Shown here: piece after piece, positions 1,667 to 20,807 of the stretch | Numbering within the stretch: the first letter of the stretch is position 1 | Layout: each line of letters opens with the position of its first letter | NCBI GenBank assembly: GCA_019428825.1 | Contig: JAHYJU010000003.1 | Coordinates: 1 to 37,606, forward strand | Direction: 5' to 3' | Source of the DNA: Patescibacteria group bacterium | Lineage (GTDB): Bacteria; Patescibacteriota; WWE3; UBA101185; UBA10185 | Length of the DNA stretch: 37,606 bases | The notes under the pieces: model-generated | What the model saw: only the letters and a program-made list of their open reading frames with translations | What the model was told of the DNA's origin: nothing | Database searches by the model: none | Position numbers and translations under genes: made by a program

Positions 1667-1693
1667 ATGTTGAAAGTATATCATCTTTTTCAA

Positions 1694-1742
1694 GGGCTCA
1701 GCCTAGGGCTGAGCCTAGGGCTGAGCCCGGGGCTCAGCCCTG
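1694..1742. repeat. GC-rich palindromic repeat array A, 12-bp period (4 units)
   Basis: GGGCTCAGCC-TA-GGGCTGAGCC-TA-GGGCTGAGCCC-G-GGGCTCAGCCC; unit starts at 1694, 1706, 1718, 1730. Confidence 0.9.
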
Positions 1743-2368: not shown

Positions 2369-2444
2369 ATTACTCTCCTATACTCTATTAGTGAATTTGT
2401 CTAGTCAATATACTATAAGGTTCGAGGGAAATCAAATGATAAGA

Positions 2445-2503
2445 GGGCTCAGCCTAGGGCTGAGCCTAGGGCCCGGCCTAGGGCCCGGCCTAGGGCCGGG
2501 CCC
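2445..2503. repeat. GC-rich palindromic repeat array B, exact 12-bp period (5 units)
   Basis: GGGCTCAGCC TA GGGCTGAGCC TA GGGCCCGGCC TA GGGCCCGGCC TA GGGCCGGGCCC; unit starts at 2445, 2457, 2469, 2481, 2493. Confidence 0.9.
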
Positions 2504-2512
2504 TGCAATATC

Positions 2513-2527
2513 TGATATAATAAGTCG
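2513..2527 (+). promoter_or_regulatory. extended -10 element (TGATATAAT) 6 nt upstream of the PBP start
   Basis: TG-A-TATAAT (2513-2521), AAGTCG, ATG(2528). Confidence 0.65.
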
Positions 2528-17631: not shown

Positions 17632-17753
17632 GGGCTCAGCCCTGTACAGGGCTGGGCCATCTGCTAGACTCAGTCTAGCATTTCTATTCTCACTAGAATT
17701 TACTTTATTACCAACTAAAAAACGGTTTAGTGGAATTTCCGGACTGAGTCCGG
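17632..17753. repeat. palindromic repeat cluster C upstream of ppdK
   Basis: GGGCTCAGCCCTGTACAGGGCTGGGCC (17632-17658), TGCTAGACT-C-AGTCTAGCA (17662-17680), CCGGACT-G-AGTCCGG (17739-17753). Confidence 0.85.
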
Positions 17754-20447: not shown

Positions 20448-20505
20448 CCGGGCTGAGTCCTGCGCTAGACTGAGTCCGGCGGACTGAGTCTAGAAAATTC
20501 TAGAT
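20448..20505. repeat. palindromic repeat cluster D downstream of ppdK
   Basis: CCGGGCT-G-AGTCCTG, CTAGACT-G-AGTCCGG, GGACT-G-AGTCTAG, AGAAAATTCT. Confidence 0.85.
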
Positions 20506-20511
20506 AGTTAA

Positions 20512-20588
20512 TGGTGGGCGGTAAAGGAATCGAACCTATGACCTCCACAATGTCAATGTGGCGCTCTAACCGACTGAGCTAACCGCCC
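20512..20588 (-). tRNA. tRNA-Val (anticodon GAC), CCA encoded
   Basis: Acceptor stem GGGCGGT/ACCGCCC, D arm TAGCTCAGTCGGTTAGAGC, anticodon arm CCACA-TTGACAT-TGTGG, T arm GGTTCGATTCC, ACCA 3' end. Confidence 0.95.
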
Positions 20589-20807
20589 CTGCTTATATCT
20601 TATTCTATTTTCAATCTTTCTCACTCGGACAAGCCTCGTTTTATACCCCACTTAATTTCTTGTGTGTATGGCTAGCTCCGGATTTTCAATTAGGAGCTAA
20701 CCGCCCCTGTTTATATCTTATTCTATTTTCAATCTTTCTCACTCGGACAAGCCTCGTTTTATACTCCACTTAATTTCTTGTGTGTATGGCTAGCTCCGGA
20801 TTTTCAA
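20576..20807. repeat. two ~114-bp direct repeats at 118-bp spacing, including the 5' end of tRNA-Val
   Basis: 20576-20689 and 20694-20807 both read gagctaaccgcccctg[c/t]ttatatcttattc...tagctccggattttcaa with two visible mismatches. Confidence 0.95.

Follow-up and report, generated by a model that had tools for sequence, protein, structure and literature searches.

The window analysed here, the whole 37,606-nucleotide stretch, is contig 63 of a 71-contig, 842-kb genome (G000) of a Patescibacteria group bacterium. It contains an array of short palindromes lying between two divergent promoters, those of a PBP gene and of a small reverse open reading frame (ORF). A preliminary description recorded five GGGCYSRGCC units at exact 12-bp steps; these are seen in the sequence and are matched by TRF, which reports a period of 12 and 4.9 copies. 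The arms read T..A in units 1 and 2 and C..G in units 3 to 5, with the centres C, G, C, C and G, as described. The TA said to follow each unit is present after units 1 to 4, but CT follows unit 5. The array ends approximately 10 bp before the extended -10 element of the PBP gene, again as described.

The preliminary description missed a second array (1693-1740) as well as units at 17632-17753 and 20465-20493. A pattern of two successive units has six matches in the window, within the two arrays, versus none in 100 dinucleotide shuffles, and an Rfam search of the window returned a tRNA as its sole match. The -10 boxes of PBP (region 2513-2528) and tyrS (about 1666-1685) stop approximately 6-9 bp short of the ATG, which suggests that the mRNAs of both genes may be leaderless. 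Two 118-bp direct repeats, 98% alike (20576-20807), overlap the 5' end of the tRNA-Val gene (20512-20588, minus strand).

Table 1. Palindromic elements of the window, transposase genes of G000 and words flanking RAYT genes in related genomes. Positions without a prefix refer to the window.
Feature	Position	Strand	Sequence	Remarks
Family A tandem array, five units	2444..2503	.	GGGCYSRGCC, 12-bp period	sequence, TRF, shuffle test, fold
Array unit 1	2445		GGGCTCAGCC	
Array unit 2	2457		GGGCTGAGCC	
Array units 3 and 4	2469, 2481		GGGCCCGGCC (both)	
Array unit 5	2493		GGGCCGGGCC	
Extended -10 of PBP	2513-2521		TGATATAAT	
Second family A array, four units	1693..1740	.		just upstream of tyrS; TRF, shuffle test
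Family A inverted pair	17632..17659	.	GGGCTCAGCCCTGTACAGGGCTGGGCC	
Family B palindrome	17664..17678	.	CTAGACTCAGTCTAG	left end of ~90-bp composite element
Family B palindrome	17739..17753	.	CCGGACTGAGTCCGG	right end of same element
Family B inverted pair	20465..20493	.	CTAGACTGAGTCCGGCGGACTGAGTCTAG	adjoins tRNA-Val
Transposase R1	C25:2217-2816			inverted family B pairs directly upstream and across 3' end
Transposase R2	C30:11871-12500			family A palindromes on both sides
RAYT-flanking word	G035		CGGGTACTACCCGATTCGGGTAGTACCCG	
RAYT-flanking word	G027		TAGGGATTATCCCAAATTTGGGATAATCCCTA	
RAYT-flanking word	G012		GGACAGTCC..GGACTGTCC	
RAYT-flanking word	G013		GGAGCTGCTCC..GAGCAGCTC	

How far does the repeat extend beyond these sites? 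The genome-wide search that the preliminary description proposed found 69 forward and 62 reverse matches to GGGCYSRGCC (family A) against 2 and 3 in the reversed control, and further arrays, on whose existence the description had staked its reading, are present. The total of about 131 counts both strands, so that many perfect palindromes are scored twice; a Markov-1 model of the same size yields 0-3 matches per strand. A second family (family B), with the core GACTSAGTC, often extended to CTAGACTSAGTC..GACTSAGTCTAG, has 74 copies versus 2 in the control. In seven relatives, including the congener G002, there are 0-3 copies each, and family B is effectively restricted to G000. High copy number of one palindrome, a property by which REP/RAYT systems are recognised, is thus found for both families (131 against 5; 74 against 2).

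The palindromes of G000 occur as singles, as inverted pairs such as AGGGCTCAGCCCTGTACAGGGCTGAGCCCT and as tandem arrays. The earlier label of minisatellite therefore suits the tandem form, but not the many copies that are inverted pairs or singles. Among 57 genomes searched (G000 and relatives), the two-unit array pattern was found only in G000 and G002; three matches came from viral contigs, and in a scan of wider genome contigs the pattern was too degenerate and was swamped by GC-rich chance matches. At the G000 loci examined, which comprise stretches around matches and a few contigs, 104 units lie in 17 kb outside genes versus 26 in 99 kb of coding DNA. The non-coding 15% of this DNA holds 104 of the 130 units, a mostly extragenic placement that is also typical of REP/RAYT. 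Palindrome arrays within long ORFs (L043 6950-6982, L045 11614-11654) are possibly in-frame insertions. A composite element of approximately 90-110 bp, bounded on each side by family B palindromes and with a spacer that is conserved in part, occurs in the window (17664-17753) and at L042 2400-2536, L045 2099-2213 and L045 9594-9689, and by analogy looks like a long REPIN or MITE. In the window copy, the spacer is similar to the DNA immediately preceding the R1 gene (L045 2099-2213).

That self-complementarity is kept rather than primary sequence had been proposed from the five units, and arm-pair counts across the genome bear this out. The count was anchored on the 5' half alone, with the 3' half read freely and palindromes scored on both strands. 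Within the 9-mer core, pair 2/8 is G-C in 149 cases, A-T in 90 and broken in 2; pair 4/6 is T-A in 218, C-G in 16 and broken in 7. A second, independent scan also supports kept self-complementarity. Families A and B are exactly one compensated base pair (2/8) apart, and pair 4/6 also varies between T-A and C-G. There are 13 distinct cores, and hence few independent compensatory events: as sequence comparisons, the arm pairs are strong evidence of kept symmetry and weak evidence of many separate compensations.

As single strands, individual units form a triloop on a stem of 4 bp; inverted neighbours fold together into hairpins of 10-13 bp, a pairing overlooked by the earlier unit-by-unit reading. 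The single-strand fold of the array beside PBP has an energy of -28.8 kcal/mol (z -4.3). Strict alternation of the centre base in 12-bp arrays was considered and rejected, since 24 opposite versus 13 same neighbours (p 0.10) amount to a trend at most; alternation is clearer where pairs are spaced by 16-17 bp, with 9 of 10 such pairs in G000. In two similar coding regions (L045 215-235 and L050 204-224), a palindrome pair lies at the matching place in both. One of the copies has T changed to C in unit 1 and A changed to G in unit 2; these substitutions match across the units instead of inside each unit, as though the long hairpin formed between units had been maintained.

Which proteins could act on such hairpins? 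Exactly two Y1_Tnp (IS200-like) genes were found in G000, R1 and R2. Each sits between palindrome clusters, mainly of family B at R1 and mainly of family A at R2, so that a low-copy Y1/HuH gene with cognate hairpins on both sides, as in REP/RAYT systems, is found in G000; the same holds at most of the loci in relatives. The best NCBIfam family for both proteins is REP_Tyr_transpos (REP-associated tyrosine transposase; 5e-9 and 9e-11), with scores of 36-42 bits that are under the curated cutoff of 80. A single-sequence search of the PDB gave no match, and a ten-sequence profile retrieved TnpA_REP first (4ER8, E 2.4e-4), followed by the IS200/IS605-type structures 2xm3 and 2xma. The HuH (NHIH and NHFH) and catalytic tyrosine (RYIH) motifs are intact in R1 and R2, as in REP/RAYT systems. 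The Y---NP signature of class 2 reads YIHFNA in R1 and YIHTNE in R2, both without the P, and YIHxNP in most relatives. R1 and R2 are divergent paralogues of approximately 55% identity and are sisters in a 78-row tree (support 100/99). Ahead of both genes (L045 2010-2220, L047 3020-3260) lies the same block. It contains the 3' end of a similar gene together with a terminator-like hairpin (GGCCGCC) and palindromes of family A, and suggests a duplicated module.

RAYT-like genes are present in 51 of 143 sampled genomes, about a third. At 78 distinct RAYT loci, the 250 bp upstream of the gene was compared, on either strand, with a stretch that begins 60 bp ahead of the stop and runs to 250 bp beyond it. 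The two sides of the gene had a word of 12 bp or longer in common at 83% of loci versus 1.3% in mismatched-locus controls. These words are genome-specific and mostly hairpins. When whole genomes were counted in one orientation, the RAYT-flanking palindrome was multicopy in four of the five tested: that of G035 has 26 copies in G035, 26 in G027 and 0-1 in others, that of G027 has 26 in G027, that of G012 has 47 in G012 (0-4 in others) and that of G013 has 31 in G013 (0-10 in others). In the fifth, G040, there are just six copies, four of them at the transposase gene. Among the G012 copies are tandem runs, four and five units long, in which the spacing is exactly 16 bp and the centres flip; a tandem palindromic array with alternating centres therefore recurs in another genome with an unrelated sequence. 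A second G012 palindrome, RGGATWATCCY, has 37 copies. On C1 of that genome (4859/4924, 76322/76386, 131819/131883), AGGATWATCCT pairs approximately 64 bp apart have a REPIN-like form and differ from the palindrome at the G012 transposase. Similar gene-plus-hairpin pairs of unrelated sequence are thus widespread in the phylum.

Could replication template switching (quasi-palindrome correction) alone, without a transposase, account for the origin of the palindromes and for their continued perfection? Template switching can make and repair perfect stems in one step (PMC8794818), and the mixed units within one array hint at copying between neighbours. The joint change of both arms is compatible with arm-to-arm template switching and with an enzyme's demand for a paired hairpin, and the present data do not separate the two. 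Nevertheless, template switching leaves unexplained the dispersal of one sequence to many sites, the matched palindromes flanking Y1 genes in most relatives and the genome-specific families. As the whole explanation it is improbable, though it may act as a helper process.

The preliminary description read the array as a repeat kept for hairpin formation or symmetric protein binding beside the PBP promoter, and its position between divergent promoters, approximately 10 bp from a -10 element, would suit a local operator or regulatory hairpin. The symmetry part of this reading holds, but specificity for the PBP promoter does not: the element is dispersed and linked to ssDNA-hairpin transposases, with about 131 family A matches and 74 family B units near unrelated genes. 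Upstream of PBP, both divergent -10 regions are retained in the congeners G001 and G003, where palindromes are absent. G002 does have a palindrome cluster there, which could be taken to favour an operator, but it differs in arrangement, unit number and sequence. The tyrS array is missing in all three congeners checked (G001, G002 and G003). The PBP and tyrS cases are presence/absence differences at orthologous sites, and after this comparison a promoter operator was rejected as the main explanation, being very unlikely. Least credible is that the hairpins are mainly transcription terminators or stabilisers of mRNA 3' ends: the hairpins are strong and some clusters lie between convergent genes close to stop codons, but they are not followed by a T tract (the DNA after the hairpin is often A-rich), the one site resembling a terminator at the tyrS array is a separate hairpin (1753-1765) and many clusters are upstream of starts, so that this reading was rejected.

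Matched flanks, multicopy palindromes and site differences among congeners together point therefore to a REP/RAYT system. The array is very likely a cluster of REP-type elements that are substrates of, and were probably spread by, the Y1/HuH RAYT/TnpA_REP of G000 itself. Transposition we infer from the enzyme family; no events were observed. The enzyme would bind an extruded single-strand hairpin, either the 4-bp stem with its triloop or the longer one formed by an inverted pair, and the asymmetric centre base would mark the strand. Cutting and rejoining of the hairpin would then produce additional copies as well as reiterated units, tandem or inverted. The two arms would change together because substrate selection favours a perfect hairpin, possibly aided by template-switch repair between arms; the link to ssDNA-hairpin transposases thus offers a concrete reason for the symmetry. 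If transcription of PBP or tyrS is affected at all, this would be a side effect of insertion beside their -10 boxes. G001, which has no copies of families A and B, and G003 gave no match to the RAYT protein family, and their palindromes are not above background. The main gap in the REP/RAYT reading is G002, which has approximately 46 family A matches and no RAYT detected in its fragmented assembly (130 contigs, 90% complete).

By analogy, the mode of the system works like that of REP/RAYT (REPtron, BIME, REPIN), with a hairpin, a cognate Y1 enzyme, a REPtron arrangement and BIME/REPIN-like pairs. The known systems share hairpins that are high-copy, mostly intergenic and grouped as inverted pairs or in tandem, together with a low-copy Y1/HuH gene that has cognate hairpins on its flanks; the hairpin sequence is specific to each genome and corresponds to its transposase (PMC2817692, PMC6006769, PMC8266576). 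In contrast to them, the elements described here are perfect odd-centred palindromes, often nested, with units down to 10-12 bp in head-to-tail arrays, a Patescibacteria host and no GT[AG]G foot. Among 74 hairpins flanking RAYT genes in relatives, 2 have this foot of canonical REPs, against a background of approximately 6%. The enzymes carry an FQ motif, which is listed solely for TnpA_Y1 subclass 2.1, where no REPs are reported (PMC6006769); this comparison is by motifs alone. A limited literature search found no work pairing RAYT with Patescibacteria.

Other known systems show partial likeness. TnpA_REP subclass 2.6 and class 3 have 'atypical secondary structures', with Y1 genes flanked by non-canonical hairpins that have copies elsewhere in the genome; they come from other phyla, a CnGA foot and a Y----Q motif characterise class 3, and both groups are set apart here by motifs and description (PMC6006769). 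IS200/IS605 transposases (TnpA_IS200) likewise act on subterminal ssDNA hairpins, but in G000 there are two divergent paralogues and the hairpins alone are high-copy. Mitochondrial GC clusters and repetitive hairpin-forming elements are also short dispersed palindromes, GC-rich in AT-rich DNA in yeast, with double hairpins and elements differing by complementary substitutions; they belong to different genomes, and the accounts considered here report no linked Y1 transposase (PMC2800124, PMC4478555).

A wider reading, for which the case falls just short of even, is that a widespread lineage of TnpA_REP enzymes in Patescibacteria needs no guide tetranucleotide to recognise perfect odd-centred palindromes, strand polarity coming from the lone centre base. 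Enzyme and repeat would co-diverge through compensated arm changes, giving each genome its own palindrome, and the duplicated transposase of one genome would already have split its repeat into two families one base pair apart. Patescibacteria genomes are small and compact, and dispersed repeats are unexpected there. The REP/RAYT reading accounts for GC-rich palindromes that otherwise resemble promoter elements. Since most of the genomes with RAYT-like genes have matched flanking hairpins, they offer dozens of naturally diverged enzyme-hairpin pairs. Hairpin choice by domesticated transposases thereby becomes testable, through covariation as well as swaps between purified enzymes.
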